In this document: positions 35,052 through 42,219 of the stretch, one piece after another
How positions within the stretch are numbered: position 1 is the stretch's first letter
Layout of the letters: each line of letters opens with the position of its first letter
NCBI RefSeq assembly: GCF_001907675.1
Contig: NZ_MPNT01000004.1
Location: 62,001-126,000 of the forward strand
Origin: Mycobacterium paraffinicum
GTDB lineage: Bacteria > Actinomycetota > Actinomycetes > Mycobacteriales > Mycobacteriaceae
Length of the DNA: 64,000 nucleotides
Reading direction: 5' to 3'
Made by a program: the position numbers and the translations under genes
The notes under the pieces: generated by a model
The model's database searches: none
Seen by the model: only the letters and a program-made list of their open reading frames with translations
Told to the model about the DNA's origin: nothing

Positions 35052-35819
35052 GTGACGGCTTCCGCCACCTGCAGAATCGACCGGGCGCTGCGCGAGCTCG
35101 GCGGCGCGCTGGGCGCGACCGCGCGTCTGCTGTCGCGGCCCCGGGCGATCGCCACAGTGGTCGGGATCACACTCCTGATCGCCGCCGCGTCGTGGCTTCC
35201 CCTGCCCACGCCCGTGCAGATGCGGGACTGGGCCGAGTCGGTTGGCCCCTGGTTCCCGCTGGCGTTCCTGGCCGCGCACATCGTGGCGACCGTGGTCCCG
35301 GTCCCGCGCACGGCGTTCACCCTGGCCGCCGGCCTGCTGTTCGGCCCGCTGCTCGGCGTGGCGCTCGCCGTCGGTGCCAGCACCGCGAGCGCGGTGATCG
35401 CGATGCTGCTGGTGCGGGCGGCCGGGTGGCGACTGAAGCGTCTGGTGCGCCACCGGTCGATCGACACGGTCGACGAGCGCCTGCGCCAGCGGGGCTGGCT
35501 GGCCATCCTGTCGCTGCGGCTGATTCCCGCCGTGCCGTTCTCGGCGATCAACTACGCCGCCGGTGCGTCGACGGTGCGTCTGCTGCCGTACACGCTGGCG
35601 ACGCTGGGCGGCCTGCTGCCCGGCACCGCCGCCGTGGTGATCCTCGGCGACGCCCTCGCCGGTCACCCTAACTCGCTGCTCTACCTGGTGTCGCTGTGCA
35701 CGGCCGCGGTGGGTTTGACGGGCTTGGTCATCGAGATCCGCCACTTCCGCCGGCACCACCGCCTCGCACATAGCCCCGTCGACGACGAGCCCTCCCCGGA
35801 GCCGGCCACCATCCGCTAG
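35052..35819 (+). CDS. TVP38/TMEM64 (DedA-like, VTT domain) membrane protein
   Basis: This 255-aa protein has five or six hydrophobic segments and the VTT-domain pattern, including AHIVATVVPVPRTAFTLAAGLLFGPLLGV and the RLIPAVPFSAINYAAGASTV segment with its conserved Arg and Pro. It matches M. tuberculosis Rv1491c in family, size and position opposite mutA. Members act in membrane lipid homeostasis, and some homologues are lipid scramblases. GTG at 35052 is the start. The function in mycobacteria is unknown. Confidence 0.85.
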   Translation: MTASATCRIDRALRELGGALGATARLLSRPRAIATVVGITLLIAAASWLPLPTPVQMRDWAESVGPWFPLAFLAAHIVATVVPVPRTAFTLAAGLLFGPLLGVALAVGASTASAVIAMLLVRAAGWRLKRLVRHRSIDTVDERLRQRGWLAILSLRLIPAVPFSAINYAAGASTVRLLPYTLATLGGLLPGTAAVVILGDALAGHPNSLLYLVSLCTAAVGLTGLVIEIRHFRRHHRLAHSPVDDEPSPEPATIR

Positions 35820-35840
35820 AAAATCTCGCCAATCACGACG

Positions 35841-35869
35841 GCTGGCAGGGCGAAAGCTGGCAAGCTGGC
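35841..35869 (+). repeat. Three GCTGGC(A) copies upstream of the protease gene
   Basis: GCTGGCA occurs at 35841 and 35856, and GCTGGC at 35864, about 40-65 bp before the start of the S1 protease gene. The unequal spacing (15 and 8 bp) weakens the case for an operator. Confidence 0.3.
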
Positions 35870-35906
35870 GCTAAGAGATCTACCGGCATCGCGCGCTCAA
35901 GGGGGG

Positions 35907-36743
35907 GTGTTGGCCGGAACCCACGTGCAGTACCCGCTGCCACAACGCTCCAGGATGCATTCCGCGTTGCTGGCGATCGCGGCGTTGTTGTGCGCCATGG
36001 CCTTCGTCGCCGCGGTCTCCCAGCTGTCGAGGAACGATTCGGCCCGCGAACTCACCCCACCGCCGGCTCTGGCGCCGATCGACCTGCCCGCATCGAGCGC
36101 CATCGGCCCCGGCGCCGGCATCTTCGTCGAGTACGCCGACGGCTCGGGCGGAATGGGTTGCACCGCAGGCTTTTTGGTGCACACCGCCACGGGCGAGCCC
36201 GGAGTCCTCACCGCCGGCCACTGCAACCGCCCGGGTGGGCCCGGCAAGGTGACGATGAACCTGGGCGGCGTCCTCCCCTACGCGACGGTCGGCACGTTCA
36301 GCCAGACGGTCAGCGAGGGTGTCCACAACGAACAGCACGACATCGGCCTAATCGTGCTGGGCGGCGACGACATCCCGCGGAGTGCGGCGGTCGGGGCCTC
36401 CCTGCCGGTCTCGGGCGTCGCCACCAACCTGCAGATCGGCCAGGAACTCTGCAAATTCGGCATGGGCTCCGGCGAGGCCACCTGCGGCACGATCACGGAA
36501 ATCACCAAGAGCAAGGTCGTGTTCTTGGCGCCCGGCCAGTGCGGCGACTCCGGCGGCCCGGTGTATCTCAATGAAGGCGACGGCACCGTTCGCGCCGTCG
36601 GCATCCTCATCCGCGGGGGTATCCCCAACACCCCCAAGCCGGGATGCTCGGCCCCGGCGAGATTCTCGGTGGCCGAGCTCATCCAACCCTGGCTGGACAA
36701 GTGGCGGCTGACCACCGTGACCGCGGGGTCCCCGGTCGGCTGA
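35907..36743 (+). CDS. Secreted/membrane-anchored trypsin-like (S1) serine protease
   Basis: This 278-aa protein has an N-terminal hydrophobic segment (about 18-38) that acts as signal peptide or anchor, a proline-rich linker and an S1 protease domain. The triad is visible: His105 in LTAGHC, Asp145 in EQHDIGL and Ser215 in QCGDSGGP. Paired Cys (85/106, 182/193, 212 and others) suggest disulphides and an extracytoplasmic site. GTG 35907 follows CAAGGGGGG; later in-frame starts at 35925 or 35955 are possible. It lies next to a two-component system and Pro-rich envelope proteins, but no TTCAGG box precedes it, so shared control is uncertain. Confidence 0.87.
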   Translation: MLAGTHVQYPLPQRSRMHSALLAIAALLCAMAFVAAVSQLSRNDSARELTPPPALAPIDLPASSAIGPGAGIFVEYADGSGGMGCTAGFLVHTATGEPGVLTAGHCNRPGGPGKVTMNLGGVLPYATVGTFSQTVSEGVHNEQHDIGLIVLGGDDIPRSAAVGASLPVSGVATNLQIGQELCKFGMGSGEATCGTITEITKSKVVFLAPGQCGDSGGPVYLNEGDGTVRAVGILIRGGIPNTPKPGCSAPARFSVAELIQPWLDKWRLTTVTAGSPVG

Positions 36744-36765
36744 ACCTTCTTGCCTCACAAGCTTC

Positions 36766-36797
36766 TTCAGGTCGGCTTCAGGCTCACTTCCTACTGT
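36766..36797 (+). promoter_or_regulatory. Promoter with TTCAGG-N5-TTCAGG direct repeat (response-regulator box 1)
   Basis: TTCAGG occurs at 36766-36771 and again at 36777-36782, an 11-bp period typical of OmpR/PhoB-family binding. A TANNNT -10 element, TACTGT, lies at 36792-36797, so the repeat covers the -35 region as expected for activation. The same arrangement, with the second hexamer 15 bp ahead of the -10, occurs at 39461-39492. It drives the Pro-rich secreted protein gene at 36872. Confidence 0.65.
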
Positions 36798-36871
36798 CGC
36801 TGCCGTTGCGGTGCGTCGCGTGGCACACCCAACGGGTGATTGATTGCCGACTGAGAGGAGAGCTGGGCCGA

Positions 36872-37120
36872 GTGAAGATCAAACAACTCATCGCCGGTTC
36901 GTTGCTTGCGGGTGCCCTTGGGGCGGCCGTGGCCGGCTTCGGTGCCGCGGCGGCCAGTGCCGATCCGCCCCCGCCCCAACCGCCGGGACAACCCTGGGGG
37001 CCGGGTCCGGGTGGGCCCGGTGGACCGGGTGGACCGCCGCCACCGCCGGGGGGACCGGGTGGACCGCCGCCGCCTGGGGCCCCGGGGGGTCCGTTCCGCC
37101 CGCCGCCGCCGGGGTTCTGA
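36872..37120 (+). CDS. Small secreted Gly/Pro-rich protein
   Basis: This 82-aa protein has a clear signal peptide, MKIKQLIAGSLLAGALG and onward, with a likely cleavage after AAASA near residue 30. The mature part consists almost only of Pro and Gly runs and ends GGPFRPPPPGF. GTG 36872 follows GAGAGGAGAGCTGGGCC. It is preceded by a TTCAGG direct-repeat promoter shared with the Pro-rich gene at 39501, which links it to the adjacent two-component system. The low-complexity chain could span or bind the cell wall. No enzymatic domain is present and no function is known. Confidence 0.75.
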   Translation: MKIKQLIAGSLLAGALGAAVAGFGAAAASADPPPPQPPGQPWGPGPGGPGGPGGPPPPPGGPGGPPPPGAPGGPFRPPPPGF

Positions 37121-37171
37121 CGCCGGCTGTGCGCTAGCCCTACCGAGCGGTGGCCGCCTCAGCTGGGGCGG

Positions 37172-38704
37172 TCACCGCTCACCCTCGGCGACCGGCAGGG
37201 TGAGCCGGAACGCGGCACCGCCGTCGTGCGGCACACACACCAGCTCCCCGCCGTGGGCCCGCGCCAGCGCCCGGGCGATCGGCAGGCCCAAACCGGCGCC
37301 GCCGTGGTCGCGGCCGCGCCCCGCGTCGAGGCGCACCAGGCGCTCGAAGATCCGCTCACGCTCGTCGTCGGGAATCCCGGGGCCGCTGTCGGTGACGGTC
37401 ACCTCGGCGGCACCATCGTGCCGCCGGACGTCGATCCCGATGGTGCCTCCGGTCGGCGTGTAGCGGCGGGCGTTGTCGAGGAGATTGGACAGGACCTGCG
37501 CGAGCCGTGTGGGGTCCGCGTTGACCTTGAGATCTGCCGCGCCCGTGCGACTGACGGTGAGTTGCGGCGCGAGCATGGCGGCCCGGTCGGCTTCGACGTC
37601 CGCGACCGCGGCCAGGTCGACGTCGCGGGTCTCCAACGGCAGCCCGGCATCGATGCGACTCAGATCCAGCATGTCCGAGACGAGCCGCCCGGCGCGGCGG
37701 GCGTCGGACAACAACAGGTTGGCCCGGCGATATTGGCCCTGCGCCACGTCATCGCCCCGATCCGGGGTGGCGTTGTTGGCGAGCTGCTCGGCGGCGACCT
37801 GAATCCCGGCGATCGGGGTGCGCAGCTCGTGGGCGGCGTCGACGAGGAAGCGCCGGGTGGCGGTCTCGGCGCGCTGGGCGGCATCCGCCGCCCGCTGGGC
37901 CCGTCGCTCGGACGCCTCCAACGCGTCCAACATCCCGTCGAAAGCGCTTGCGGCACGGCCAAGCTCGGTGTTGGCCCGGTCCGGGCGCAGCCGTCGACCG
38001 CGATCGCCCGTCCGGATGTCGTTGGCCAGCGCCGTCAGCCGGTCCAACGGGCGCAACGCCACCCGGCTGACTGCCACCAACAACAGGGCGGCGGTGAGGA
38101 GGGTCACCGCGCCGGCCCCGAGCATCAGCAGGCGCAGCTGGTGCGTCACCTGCGTGGTTTGCGTCGTGTCGGCGACCAGGATCACCCGGGAGCCATCCGG
38201 CAGCGGACGCACCACGGCCGTCGCGGTGGCGTCCGGCGGCGGGGGCGGCCAGGGCGGAATGCCGGGCGGCGGGGGCGGCGGCGGCCAGGGCGGAACGCCG
38301 GGCGGCGCAAAGTTCGGGTCGGGCGCCCACGGTGGCGGCGGCGCGAAGGGCGGCGGGGGCGGCAAGGGCGGAAAGGGCGGCGGGGCAACGGGACCGGCAA
38401 CGGTGTCGGGACTGATGCCGCGGTCGCCGTACGTTGCGCCGTCGGCGGTGACCAGCAGTGCCCGCACACCGCCGCCGTTGAGTTCGGCGGCCAGCAGATC
38501 GGGCGAGGTGTGTGCCGCGTCCAGCGCCTCGGCCCGCGACGCGGCCGCGAGCAGCCGGTCGTGCAGGTTTCGGCGAGCCAGAACGCCCAGGCTGACGTCG
38601 ACGGTGACGCCGAGCACCACCAACAGCAGGGCGAGCAACGCCACCACCACCAGCGTCACCCGGCGCTGCAGGGACGGGGTTCGAGTCGTGGGCGCGGCCG
38701 TCAT
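37172..38704 (-). CDS. Sensor histidine kinase with polyproline extracytoplasmic loop
   Basis: This 510-aa membrane kinase has TM1 at about 16-39, an extracytoplasmic loop, TM2 at about 191-213 and a HAMP region. The dimerisation domain holds His292 in FLVDAAHELRTP, and the ATPase domain has NLLDNARRYTP, DSGPGIP and GGAGLGLPIA. Residues 104-158 of the loop are dominated by polyproline, including a repeat of G(V/I)PPWPPPPP. ATG 38704 overlaps the stop of the response-regulator gene (ATGA), so the two are co-translated. It probably senses an envelope signal and phosphorylates the regulator. It has no counterpart between Rv1488 and Rv1491c in M. tuberculosis. Confidence 0.92.
   Translation of the reverse strand: MTAAPTTRTPSLQRRVTLVVVALLALLLVVLGVTVDVSLGVLARRNLHDRLLAAASRAEALDAAHTSPDLLAAELNGGGVRALLVTADGATYGDRGISPDTVAGPVAPPPFPPLPPPPPFAPPPPWAPDPNFAPPGVPPWPPPPPPPGIPPWPPPPPDATATAVVRPLPDGSRVILVADTTQTTQVTHQLRLLMLGAGAVTLLTAALLLVAVSRVALRPLDRLTALANDIRTGDRGRRLRPDRANTELGRAASAFDGMLDALEASERRAQRAADAAQRAETATRRFLVDAAHELRTPIAGIQVAAEQLANNATPDRGDDVAQGQYRRANLLLSDARRAGRLVSDMLDLSRIDAGLPLETRDVDLAAVADVEADRAAMLAPQLTVSRTGAADLKVNADPTRLAQVLSNLLDNARRYTPTGGTIGIDVRRHDGAAEVTVTDSGPGIPDDERERIFERLVRLDAGRGRDHGGAGLGLPIARALARAHGGELVCVPHDGGAAFRLTLPVAEGER
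38231..38395 (-). repeat. Proline-codon repeat region inside the sensor kinase gene
   Basis: This GC-rich tract encodes the Pro-rich part of the sensor loop. It contains near-identical units encoding G(V/I)PPWPPPPP. Such tracts can expand or shrink by slippage in steps of three bases without breaking the frame, so length variation between strains is likely. Confidence 0.6.
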
Positions 38705-39414
38705 GATCGCCGGGGCTGCAGCCGGTAGCCGATGCCGCGGACGGTGTGCAGTATCCGCGGCCCGTGGGCTTCGAGCTTGCGCCGCAAGCCGCTGATGTGC
38801 ACCTGGACCAGGTTGGGGTCGTAGGCGTCGTACCCCCACACCGCGTTCAGGATCTGGCCGGCGCTGACGATGCGGCCGCGCTGCTCCACCAGAAAGGCCA
38901 GCAGCCGCAGCTCGGTTGCCGTCAGATCGAGGCGACTACCGCCGCGCGCGGCCACGCCGGCGTCGGCGTCCAGCATCAGGTCGCCGACCTGGACCACCTG
39001 CGGCAGCCGTCCGCGTCGGCGCAACACCGCCCCGACCCGCGACACCAATTCGGCCAGCTCGAACGGCTTGATCACGTAGTCGTCCGCGCCACCGTCCAAG
39101 CCCCGCAGCCGATCCTGCAGGCCGTCGCGCGCCGTAATCAAGACGATCCCGACGTCGCCCCAGTCGCGGATGACATCGATGAGGTCGAAGCCGTCGCGTC
39201 CCGGCAGCATGACGTCGAGCACCACCAGGTCTGGGCGCAGCCCGTCGAGCACTTCCTCCAACCCGTCGCCGTCACAACGGCCGACGGTGTGATAGCCGAC
39301 GTCGGTGAGCGCCTCGCCCACCATTTCGCGAATCGTCTCGGAGTCTTCGACCACCAGAACCCGCGGCGTGCCGACGCTGAAGCGGCCGGCCGCCACACGC
39401 GGGCAGTTCGTCAT
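38701..39414 (-). CDS. OmpR/PhoB-family response regulator
   Basis: This 237-aa regulator has a receiver domain with the acidic pocket VVEDSE near 21-26, phospho-acceptor Asp67 in VVLDVMLPG and Lys116 in YVIKPFE. A winged-helix DNA-binding domain follows, with LTATELRLLAFLVEQRG and VHISGLRRKLE. ATG 39414 gives the standard length; the open frame runs to 39558 but crosses the promoter. The regulator is encoded directly upstream of its kinase. TTCAGG-type repeats ahead of its own gene and two Pro-rich genes are the likely binding sites, which would make it autoregulated. Confidence 0.92.
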   Translation of the reverse strand: MTNCPRVAAGRFSVGTPRVLVVEDSETIREMVGEALTDVGYHTVGRCDGDGLEEVLDGLRPDLVVLDVMLPGRDGFDLIDVIRDWGDVGIVLITARDGLQDRLRGLDGGADDYVIKPFELAELVSRVGAVLRRRGRLPQVVQVGDLMLDADAGVAARGGSRLDLTATELRLLAFLVEQRGRIVSAGQILNAVWGYDAYDPNLVQVHISGLRRKLEAHGPRILHTVRGIGYRLQPRRS

Positions 39415-39420
39415 GACTCC

Positions 39421-39451
39421 ATTGTCGCGCCGGTCCTGAAACGAACCTGAA
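39421..39451 (-). promoter_or_regulatory. Response-regulator box 2, facing the regulator gene
   Basis: Read on the minus strand, TTCAGG occurs at 39451-39446 and again at 39440-39435, an 11-bp period. A -10-like GACAAT follows at 39426-39421, six bases before the ATG at 39414, so the mRNA is probably leaderless or nearly so. The box is the mirror image of box 3 across a 9-bp gap, giving four half-sites in the divergent promoter. Confidence 0.6.
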
Positions 39452-39460
39452 GCCCGCATC

Positions 39461-39492
39461 TTCAGGTCCACCTCAGTTCCGGCTCCTACCGT
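39461..39492 (+). promoter_or_regulatory. Response-regulator box 3, facing the Pro-rich membrane protein gene
   Basis: TTCAGG at 39461-39466 is followed after 5 bp by the imperfect copy CTCAGT at 39472-39477. The -10 TACCGT lies at 39487-39492, with the same 15-bp offset as in box 1. Eight bases separate the -10 from the ATG at 39501, which predicts a leaderless transcript. Confidence 0.62.
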
Positions 39493-39500
39493 CCGGTGCC

Positions 39501-39869
39501 ATGACCACAAACGACGAAATCGACACCAGTTCCCCGCCACCGGCGGGCCATCAACCACCTCAGCCCCGCCGCCACTCCACCGGCGTCGTGGTCGGCGCCG
39601 GGGTGGCGGGCGCGCTCATCGGCGCCGTCGGCACCATCGCGGCGATCGCCTTCGCCTGGATCATCAGCGCGGGCTCGCCCGGTCTGCCGCCGCTGCCGGG
39701 TCCGCCGCCGATGATGGCACTGCATCCGGGCCCACCGCCCCCGCCGATGGGTGGTCCCATGCCCGGAGGCTTCGGGTTCGCGCCGCCGCCCGGGCCGCCG
39801 CGGGGCTACGTCCCGCCGCCGCCCGGCGAGGCATTGCAGCCGCCGCCCTCCCCCGCGCCGCACAGCTGA
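39501..39869 (+). CDS. Small membrane protein with Pro-rich extracytoplasmic tail
   Basis: This 122-aa protein has a short hydrophilic Pro-containing N-terminus, one membrane helix (about 29-56, VVVGAGVAGALIGAVGTIAA) and a tail of Pro, Gly and Met runs ending PPPSPAPHS. ATG 39501 lies eight bases after a -10 element, so translation is probably leaderless. It shares its membrane-helix region (RR..TGV..AG.AG..IGA) with the protein at 39969 and is probably a paralogue. It is divergent from the response-regulator gene and shares the box cluster with it. The function is unknown. Confidence 0.72.
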   Translation: MTTNDEIDTSSPPPAGHQPPQPRRHSTGVVVGAGVAGALIGAVGTIAAIAFAWIISAGSPGLPPLPGPPPMMALHPGPPPPPMGGPMPGGFGFAPPPGPPRGYVPPPPGEALQPPPSPAPHS

Positions 39870-39870
39870 C

Positions 39871-39917
39871 CGGCCCGCCGCCGTCACGATCCGCCGAATC
39901 GTGACGGCGGCGGGCCG
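39871..39917 (+). terminator. Strong 20-bp stem hairpin terminator
   Basis: A perfect 20-bp inverted repeat (39871-39890 and 39898-39917) with a 7-nt loop begins two bases after the stop of the Pro-rich gene. It has no U-tract, as in I-shaped mycobacterial terminators. It would isolate the 39501 transcript from the following gene. Confidence 0.8.
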
Positions 39918-39968
39918 TCTCGCCAGTAGCGTCTGAAGTCAACGACATCCGACCACCGGGAGAGCCGC

Positions 39969-40241
39969 ATGACCTCGGACAACATCGGAACCCGCCGCTT
40001 CCCCACCGGCGTCGCCATCGTCGCCGGTCTGGCCGGCCTGATACTCGGCGCGTTGGCCACCTTCGCGATCACGGGGCTGGTGTGGACGGTCCGCGTTCAA
40101 CTCCCCCCGCCGCCATACCCGCCGCCGCTGTCCTCGCAGCCGGTGGGCGGGGGCGGCTGCATTTACACCGCGCCGCCCGCACCGACGTCCGCGCCGGGCG
40201 TCGTGCCCGCGCCACCGTTGCCGCCGGCGCCGCACGCGTAA
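39969..40241 (+). CDS. Small Pro-rich membrane protein, paralogue of the 39501 product
   Basis: This 90-aa protein has one membrane helix (about 13-40) and a Pro-rich tail with a Gly/Cys patch (VGGGGCIY). The helix region resembles that of the 39501 protein (RRFPTGVAIVAGLAGLILGAL against RRHSTGVVVGAGVAGALIGAV, with short gaps). ATG 39969 follows CCGGGAGAGCCGC. A TANNNT element, TAGCGT, lies at 39927-39932, but no TTCAGG box is seen, so control differs from its paralogue. Its stop lies two bases before the start of the next gene, suggesting co-transcription. Confidence 0.7.
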   Translation: MTSDNIGTRRFPTGVAIVAGLAGLILGALATFAITGLVWTVRVQLPPPPYPPPLSSQPVGGGGCIYTAPPAPTSAPGVVPAPPLPPAPHA

Positions 40242-40243
40242 CG

Positions 40244-40711
40244 GTGTCGTCTCTCCCCGAGCTCGCCGGACGATTGCTCCGGTCGCGCCGACTCATGCGC
40301 GCGCCGATCTGGCTCTTCAAGGCCCGCGCGGGCGCGCTGTTCGGATCGCGCATGCTGATGCTCGAGCACACCGGTCGCAACTCGGGCGCGCGGCGCCATG
40401 CCGTCCTCGAGGTGGTCGACCACCCCGACCCGGCCACCTACGTCGTGGCCTCCGGCTTCGGCCGCAAAGCCCAGTGGTTCCGCAACATTGAGGCCGACCC
40501 GCGGGTGCGCGTCGACGCGGGCAGCCGTGCGCCCCGACGAGCCACGGCGCGGGTGATGACACAAGATGAGGCGGATCGCGTCCTGGCCGCCTATCGCAGC
40601 CGTCACCCGAAGGCGTGGGAGCGGATGCGGCCCGTGTTGGAGGGCACGCTCGGCGCTTCGATCACCGCCACCGGCGCCCCGCTGCCGTTGGTCGAGCTGC
40701 GCCTCGACTAG
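40244..40711 (+). CDS. Deazaflavin (F420)-dependent nitroreductase-family protein
   Basis: This 155-aa protein is of the DUF385/Ddn-like split-barrel family, which uses cofactor F420 to reduce quinones or other substrates in mycobacteria. The typical core LEHTGRNSGARRHAVLEVVDH, followed by YVVASGFGRKAQWFRNIEADP, is clear. GTG 40244 is two bases after the stop of the previous gene; the open frame extends upstream only through that gene. It is convergent with the DoxX gene, overlapping by four bases. The natural substrate is unknown. Confidence 0.82.
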   Translation: MSSLPELAGRLLRSRRLMRAPIWLFKARAGALFGSRMLMLEHTGRNSGARRHAVLEVVDHPDPATYVVASGFGRKAQWFRNIEADPRVRVDAGSRAPRRATARVMTQDEADRVLAAYRSRHPKAWERMRPVLEGTLGASITATGAPLPLVELRLD

Positions 40712-41064
40712 GTGCGGTCGGGACCCTTGGCCGTCATAACGGCGAAGGTCGCCAGGAACATGGCCGCCGGGAGGGCGTTGGCGACCTTGTCCCGCACCCG
40801 GATGTGCGCACCGAGCGCCAAGACGAAATAGAGCGTCAGCATCGCCGTCGTCAGCCTCGCCAGGGCGGGGAAGCGGGTCACCGACAGCAAGCCCACCGCC
40901 GCGGCCGCCTTCACCACCGGCAGCACGGGCCGGACGTTTTCCGGCAGGCCGACGTCATCCAGAACCTTCTTGATGGGAGCCACCTGCACGCCGCACAGCA
41001 CCGCGTCCACGGCATGGAACGCGCCGAGCGCGACGTAGGTCTTCGGCGAAGTGAAAACGCTCAT
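40708..41064 (-). CDS. DoxX-like membrane protein
   Basis: This 118-aa protein has four hydrophobic segments and the DoxX_2-type pattern (GLPENVRPVLPVVKAAAAVGLL and LYFVLALGAHIRVRD). DoxX-like proteins are small membrane proteins linked to redox defence in some mycobacteria. The ATG at 41064 lies 9 bp after the SPFH gene stop, so it is probably the last gene of the NfeD-SPFH operon. The stop overlaps the converging F420-type gene by four bases. Confidence 0.78.
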   Translation of the reverse strand: MSVFTSPKTYVALGAFHAVDAVLCGVQVAPIKKVLDDVGLPENVRPVLPVVKAAAAVGLLSVTRFPALARLTTAMLTLYFVLALGAHIRVRDKVANALPAAMFLATFAVMTAKGPDRT

Positions 41065-41073
41065 GGAGCAATC

Positions 41074-42219
41074 CTATTGAGCCAACTGCGGCGGCGCCCC
41101 GGGCGGCGTGCCATCCAGCGGCTGGCGGGCGCTCGCCTCGGCCTTGGCCACCGCCTGCGCGATCGCGGGATCGGTCTCGGTGGAGAACCAGTCGGCGATC
41201 TCCGCGTCGTCGTCGGCGCTGTGCTTGGGTGCGTCCTCGACCGGTGACGGTTGGAACCTGAACACGCCGTCCTCGCCGGGAGTGCCCAGCAGTTTGGTGA
41301 ATCCCTGCAACGCCGCGCCGAAGTCGCTGGGCACCACCCAGACCTTGTTGGCGTCACCGCGGGCCATTTCGGGCAGCGTCTGCAGGTACTGGTAGGCCAG
41401 CATCTCCGGGGTGGGCCTGCCGGCCTTGATCGCGGCGAAGGTCTTCTCGATGGCCTTGGCCTGCCCCTGCGCCCGCAGGTAGGCGGCGGCGCGCTCACCC
41501 TGGGCGCGCAGCATCCGGGACTGCCGGTCGGCCTCGGCGGCCAGGATGGCGGCCTGCTTGGCGCCCTCGGCGGCCAGGATCTGCGCCTGCTTGGCGCCCT
41601 CGGCCTGTGTGATCGCGGCCTGCCGGTTCCCTTCGGCGGTCAGGATCATCGCCCGCTTCTCACGGTCGGCCTTCATCTGCTTTTCCATCGAGGCCTGAAT
41701 CGACGGCGGCGGGTCGATGCTGCGCAGCTCGACCCGCGCGACCCGTAGGCCCCAGCGGCCGGTCGCCTCGTCGAGGACGCCGCGCAGCTGCCCGTTGATC
41801 ATGTCGCGGGAGGTCAGGGTTTGCTCGAGCGTCATTCCGCCGACCACGTTGCGCAGGGTGGTGGTGGTGAGCTGCTCGACGCCGACGATGTAGTTGCTGA
41901 TCTCGTAGACGGCGGCCTGCGGGACGGTGACCTGGAAGTAGACCACGGTGTCGATGTTCAGCGTCAGGTTGTCCTCGGTGATCACCGGCTGCGGCGGGAA
42001 CGACACCACCCGCTCACGCAGGTCCACCCGGGCGCGCACCCGGTCGATGAACGGCACCAACAACGTCAGCTGACCACTGACCGTCCGGCTATACCGCCCC
42101 AGCCGCTCGATCACCGCGGCCTCGGCCTGCGGTATCAGGGCGACCGACTTGGCCACCACGACTATGGCGAATATCACCAGGACGGCCAACAACACCAAAC
42201 CAGCAACCGCACCTTGCAC
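41074..42219 (-). CDS. SPFH/band 7 membrane scaffold protein (QmcA-like)
   Basis: This 381-aa stomatin/prohibitin-type protein has an N-terminal membrane helix (LVLLAVLVIFAIVVVAKSVAL), an SPFH domain with IERLGRYSRTVSGQLTLLVPFIDRV and a long Ala/Gln/Glu-rich coiled coil around residues 180-265. It matches M. tuberculosis Rv1488 in family and neighbourhood. SPFH proteins form large rings that organise membrane domains and regulate proteases. GTG 42219 is used. The NfeD partner lies 36 bp upstream in the same operon, the usual pairing. Confidence 0.9.
   Translation of the reverse strand: MQGAVAGLVLLAVLVIFAIVVVAKSVALIPQAEAAVIERLGRYSRTVSGQLTLLVPFIDRVRARVDLRERVVSFPPQPVITEDNLTLNIDTVVYFQVTVPQAAVYEISNYIVGVEQLTTTTLRNVVGGMTLEQTLTSRDMINGQLRGVLDEATGRWGLRVARVELRSIDPPPSIQASMEKQMKADREKRAMILTAEGNRQAAITQAEGAKQAQILAAEGAKQAAILAAEADRQSRMLRAQGERAAAYLRAQGQAKAIEKTFAAIKAGRPTPEMLAYQYLQTLPEMARGDANKVWVVPSDFGAALQGFTKLLGTPGEDGVFRFQPSPVEDAPKHSADDDAEIADWFSTETDPAIAQAVAKAEASARQPLDGTPPGAPPQLAQ

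Follow-up and report, generated by a model that had tools for sequence, protein, structure and literature searches.

TcrX/TcrY and the Mycobacterium paraffinicum locus

In Mycobacterium tuberculosis the two-component system TcrX/TcrY (Rv3765c/Rv3764c) is autoregulated and directly controls the small proline-rich proteins Rv3706c and Rv3705A (PMC10883919). The available part of that report assigns 70 genes to the TcrX regulon and describes a mirror repeat of 7 bp at the promoter of the system itself, with no motif reported there for the proline-rich targets (PMC10883919). By this published description TcrXY is the nearest precedent for the locus analyzed here, which likewise joins a mycobacterial two-component system to small proline-rich proteins and lies in a 64,000-nucleotide stretch of Mycobacterium paraffinicum (contig NZ_MPNT01000004.1, positions 62,001 to 126,000), hereafter called the window. 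Unlike TcrXY as far as it is described, the present system shows a direct-repeat motif at its targets and, in part of the loci, at the regulator gene, and its targets are mostly adjacent. We regard it, with considerable confidence, as an uncharacterized OmpR/PhoB-type two-component system of non-tuberculous mycobacteria, whose regulator would bind the repeats and thereby activate genes for proline-rich envelope proteins and, in this locus, its own operon.

Two other described systems were compared. PhoP of M. tuberculosis uses 7-bp repeats with a 4-bp spacer (PMC4832192, in the part available). CutRS of Streptomyces, with 10 chromatin immunoprecipitation (ChIP) peaks reported for S. venezuelae and 85 sites for S. 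coelicolor, counts HtrA-family proteins and a putative amidase among its targets (available parts of PMC12802291 and PMC10433416). As described there, CutRS resembles the present locus as an actinobacterial two-component system with envelope-related targets and differs from it in the binding motif; CutR was rejected as the owner of the repeats because its published motif is TAWATAAA (PMC12802291). A literature search by titles and the starts of abstracts found, among the papers listed, no description of the present system or of its motif. That a mycobacterial two-component system directly controls small proline-rich proteins had already been published for TcrXY (PMC10883919), which limits the preliminary description.

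The domains of the neighboring regulator and kinase (Table 1) are those of an OmpR/PhoB-type pair, and direct repeats with a period of about 11 bp lie upstream of -10 boxes, as expected at the sequence level for that class. The start of the kinase gene and the end of the regulator gene overlap by 4 bp. The gene for the secreted proline-rich protein converges on the kinase gene, and the gene for the membrane proline-rich protein diverges from the regulator gene and is followed by a second one of its kind, whose membership in the regulon is uncertain. The sites, the two regulatory genes and the two target genes span positions 36766-39869, about 3.1 kb, within the 4 kb proposed earlier.

The regulator stayed below every NCBIfam cut-off among the 25 families listed of 88, and the kinase did so among the 25 listed of 81; in particular, the scores for MtrA (188.4 against 300 bits), PhoB (175.6 against 296.2) and MtrB (160 against 450) do not support an MtrAB or PhoBR equivalog. 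A protein search with the regulator returned no specific gene name among the 120 matches listed of 5265. The three proline-rich proteins of the window had no match in Pfam, NCBIfam or PHROGs.

Geometry of the repeats and of their promoters

Sites 1 and 2 precede the two proline-rich target genes, and site 3 faces the regulator gene, as had been described. The distance of 15 bp to the -10 box claimed for the first two sites is correct when counted from the start of the second hexamer to the start of the box, which leaves a gap of 9 bp; the corresponding distance at site 3 is 14 bp. In the window the exact 12-base motif occurs twice (36766, plus strand; 39435, minus strand) and it was absent from 100 dinucleotide-preserving shuffles. 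When up to two mismatches were allowed there were six matches against 3.06 expected, and at least six in 7 of the 100 shuffles, so that site 2 is not significant alone and is rescued by its conservation in relatives. In relatives, too, a site like site 1 precedes this secreted protein gene. A consensus promoter scan of positions 36700-39600 found none and is uninformative, since the shuffles likewise gave 0.0.

PhoB binds pho boxes, with a half-site replacing the -35 element, and recruits the polymerase carrying the main sigma factor. The present regulator resembles PhoB and, as far as it is described, PhoP in belonging to the OmpR family and in the 11-bp period of its predicted direct-repeat sites, and it resembles PhoB in the half-site at the -35 place; it differs from both in the half-site sequence, TTCAGG, and in having a handful of mostly local predicted targets. 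By analogy with PhoB, the phosphorylated regulator would bind the TTCAGG-N5-TTCAG repeats as a head-to-tail dimer at the -35 position and recruit the main sigma-factor polymerase, and the geometry suggests that in the window this would activate the proline-rich genes and its own operon. The kinase may sense an envelope condition through its proline-rich extracellular loop, and the induced proteins may remodel or protect the envelope.

The opposite sign of control has to be weighed, namely that the regulator acts as a repressor of these promoters, with the repeats as its operators. The sites stand near the -10 boxes, only 9 bp separate the divergent pair (39435, minus; 39461, plus), and the geometry taken alone is also compatible with repression, which counts against activation. 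Yet 9 bp lie between the end of the second half-site and the -10 box, which puts this half-site at the -35 position, an arrangement that would fit an activator, and we hold repression to be improbable. On the -10-to-start spacing rule, leaderless mRNAs are predicted for the regulator gene (39414) and for the membrane proline-rich gene (39501) because their ATG codons follow the -10 boxes by 6 and 8 nt.

Table 1. Genes, direct-repeat sites and -10-like boxes of the locus (positions in the window)
Feature	Position	Strand	Remarks
Site 1, TTCAGGTCGGCTTCAGG	36766..36782	+	exact TTCAGG-N5-TTCAGG; upstream of the open reading frame (ORF) 36872-37120
-10-like box of site 1, TACTGT	36792..36797	+	starts 15 bp after start of second hexamer
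Secreted small proline-rich protein	36872..37120	+	82 aa, 33% Pro; signal-peptide-like N-terminus by eye
Sensor histidine kinase	37172..38704	-	510 aa; HAMP, HisKA, HATPase_c (Pfam); polyproline extracellular loop
OmpR/PhoB-type response regulator	38701..39414	-	237 aa; Response_reg and Trans_reg_C (Pfam)
-10-like box of regulator promoter, GACAAT	39421..39426	-	6 nt before ATG
Site 3, TTCAGGTTCGTTTCAGG	39435..39451	-	TTCAGG-N5-TTCAGG; faces regulator (ATG at 39414); putative autoregulatory role
Site 2, TTCAGGTCCACCTCAGT	39461..39477	+	TTCAGG-N5-CTCAGT, 2 of 12 mismatched; divergent, upstream of ORF 39501-39869
-10-like box of site 2, TACCGT	39487..39492	+	8 nt before ATG of membrane proline-rich gene
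Membrane small proline-rich protein	39501..39869	+	122 aa, 29% Pro; one hydrophobic segment by eye, proline-rich C-terminal tail
Second membrane proline-rich protein	39969..40241	+	90 aa, 21% Pro; lacks its own TTCAGG site

Distribution of the repeats in relatives and across the genus

A genome scan gave 145 loci with a relative of the regulator, and the best 80 (74-97% identical), of which 79 come from records named Mycobacterium, Mycolicibacter or Mycolicibacterium, were compared together with the window, that is 81 loci. With at most two mismatches of 11 accepted, a site in the divergent direction was present upstream of the regulator gene in 68 of the 81 loci and a regulator-facing site in 43; under the same criterion 3.2% of 2868 background segments scored (one strand). 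A slightly longer segment yielded 69 divergent sites, and TANNNT stood at offset 27, where it starts 15 bp past the start of the second hexamer, in 53 of them and at another offset in one. At the 43 regulator-facing sites an ACAAT-type -10 box was found at offset 27 in 18, 26 in three and 28 in five, counts in which one locus may appear twice. These patterns make autoregulation probable in the window and in roughly half of the relatives. M. nebraskense (L103) carries a second such pair, a regulator 79% identical and a kinase 57% identical, the latter with a proline-rich sensor loop, and this pair has its own divergent TTCAGG-type site.

The search for the motif at its 15-bp offset from the -10 box, advised in the preliminary description, was carried out on whole genomes of relatives with two patterns, each with its reversed form as control. 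The first, TTCAGG-N5-TTCAG-N10-TANNNTC with at most one mismatch, matched 19 of 25 system-bearing genomes (control, 1 of 25), and in the genomes of L001, L004, L009 and L013 it matched twice, both times at this locus, and nowhere else. Among 198 genomes drawn from the genus, 71 hold the regulator at 70% identity or more, three genomes with more distant relatives being scored as without it. The first pattern matched 67 of the 198 (89 hits; control, 6), including 50 of the 71 with the regulator. A refined 33-bp pattern with at most three mismatches produced 66 hits, spread over 56 genomes, against zero for the control, and it was found in 52 of the 71 genomes with the regulator versus 4 of the 127 without. 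Most of these hits (51 of 66) lie within 6 kb of the regulator gene; three are farther away on the same contig, eight are on other contigs, each less than 1.6 kb from a contig end, and four are in regulator-less genomes. The exact pair of half-sites alone, TTCAGGTTNNYTTCAG, had 33 hits in 28 genomes versus 6 control hits, and as 25 of the 33 are within 6 kb of the regulator gene, the strict form gives no sign of an extensive hidden regulon (no search was made for looser or differently spaced sites).

The contexts of all 66 refined hits were sorted by eye and by proline content. A membrane proline-rich gene follows 43 of them (two incomplete and three running into kinase sequence, in draft assemblies) and a secreted one follows nine (one running into undetermined bases, N, and one with a broken frame), which makes 52 proline-rich genes behind the motif at the sequence level. 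Another seven precede a gene with a PPE-like start, one verified by Pfam, so that proline-rich or PPE genes stand behind 59 of the 66; two contexts are unreadable (a contig end, N). How well the sites are conserved in relatives, how often they occur together with the regulator gene and which genes follow the matches all fit, as the preliminary description proposed, a regulon made up chiefly of proline-rich envelope proteins, which would be very small and mostly local and would include the system itself.

Several observations weigh against this reading. The refined pattern was derived from sites of this family, and the counts lack independence since they come from related genomes. It is missing from 19 of the 71 regulator-bearing genomes and present in four without a regulator of at least 70% identity, and the first, looser pattern also occurs in 17 of the 127 regulator-less genomes. 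Five of the 66 refined hits precede genes of other kinds (AhpC/TSA, MFS and MIP by Pfam, a Lys/Ala/Pro-repeat gene 335 bp downstream, and one unclear), all in the weakest class with three mismatches, a class to which some proline-rich and PPE hits also belong. Mycolicibacter has a PPE gene as target instead. The regulator-facing site is absent from 38 of the 81 loci, Mycolicibacter loci included, so autoregulation through that site is not general, and of the five M. asiaticum loci that retain the divergent site, four lack it. The earlier term "self-contained" suits most genomes and fails in G082, with one membrane proline-rich target 802 kb away, and in G068, with a secreted proline-rich gene at 15 kb.

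The repeats could also belong to a widely conserved mycobacterial regulator such as RegX3, MtrA, PhoP or MprA, and the neighboring system would then be incidental. Mycolicibacter sites do hold GTTCAC-like repeats, which resemble pho-box units. Other OmpR-type regulators use 11-bp-spaced direct repeats as well, among them M. tuberculosis PhoP as described in the available part of PMC4832192. However, a universal regulator would be expected to have sites at other genes and also where this system is missing, and the 4 of 127 against 52 of 71 genomes, together with the 51 of 66 hits near the regulator gene, disfavor such owners to the point that we give them very little credence. Chance repeats in a GC-rich intergenic region, an idea that the weakness of site 2 alone might encourage, are next to inconceivable in view of the conservation, the spacing, the shuffle control (0 of 100) and above all the reversed whole-genome controls (6 and 0 of 198).

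The preferred reading, activation of a few proline-rich envelope genes by the adjacent system, gives an unnamed signaling system, present in 71 of 198 genomes of the genus, a precise predicted recognition motif and a small set of predicted targets, and it ties two-component control to small proline-rich envelope proteins. With two or three targets, the system would be a minimal one for studying the role of these proteins; how they act is stated to be unknown in M. tuberculosis too (PMC10883919, available part).

The kinase sensor loop and neighboring features

The polyproline sensor loop attributed to the kinase is borne out by 39 prolines in a segment of 129 residues. The loop could be read in 61 of the 81 loci (unreadable in 20); the window and most of the readable relatives have a polyproline loop. 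Its composition follows the type of target: 42 loci have loops with at least 15 prolines in 40 residues, and among them 36 have a proline-rich target, six have none that was found and none has a PPE target, versus 14 PPE, three proline-rich and two without a target among the 19 loci below that threshold. In all 14 PPE-target loci the loop is proline-poor and also shorter. As these are all Mycolicibacter, they represent one or few evolutionary events.

This covariation lends some support to a speculative reading, to which we assign a low probability, in which the loop is a sensor-side mimic of the proline-rich tails that the system controls. Both would engage the same envelope partner; the kinase would gauge the free partner and induce proline-rich proteins as long as some of it is unoccupied, which would make a feedback circuit out of shared low-complexity sequence. 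The three loci with a proline-poor loop and a proline-rich target, and the confinement of the PPE cases to one clade, count against it.

In four loci (L010, L015, L019, L056) the C-terminal half of the kinase lies on the opposite strand, and fused membrane-proline/kinase ORFs appear in 3 of the 66 hit contexts, two of these on contigs equal in length to those of L010 and L056, where a fusion with a membrane proline-rich N-terminus is seen. We judge misassembly at polyproline-coding repeats more likely here than a real inversion between oppositely oriented tracts, because in eight other loci (L002, L003, L006, L007, L008, L026, L052, L078) the kinase alignment stops within the sensor part at 15 bases or less from a contig end.

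As for the surroundings, Rfam gave no match over positions 35500-41500, and a plasmid search with the kinase-regulator DNA returned two records, each with 2% query coverage. In L071, L073 and L074, of Mycolicibacterium type, another site that matches lies ahead of the gene for a Lys/Ala/Pro-repeat protein whose C-terminus contains HPD and is recognized by Pfam as a DnaJ domain in L071. A trypsin-like protease (35907-36743; Pfam PF00089) is encoded just 5' of the secreted proline-rich gene of the window; its match to the Rv1815 family is weak (45 against 175 bits). It has a counterpart in 15 of the 80 relative loci, many of which are incomplete, and in L110 this counterpart adjoins a relocated secreted proline-rich gene. 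The G+C content of the window is 61-64% over positions 1-28000 and 66-72% over 28001-64000, and the first part may differ in origin. Between the two membrane proline-rich genes, at 39871-39917, lies a near-perfect 23-nt inverted repeat with its arms 1 nt apart, possibly a terminator.

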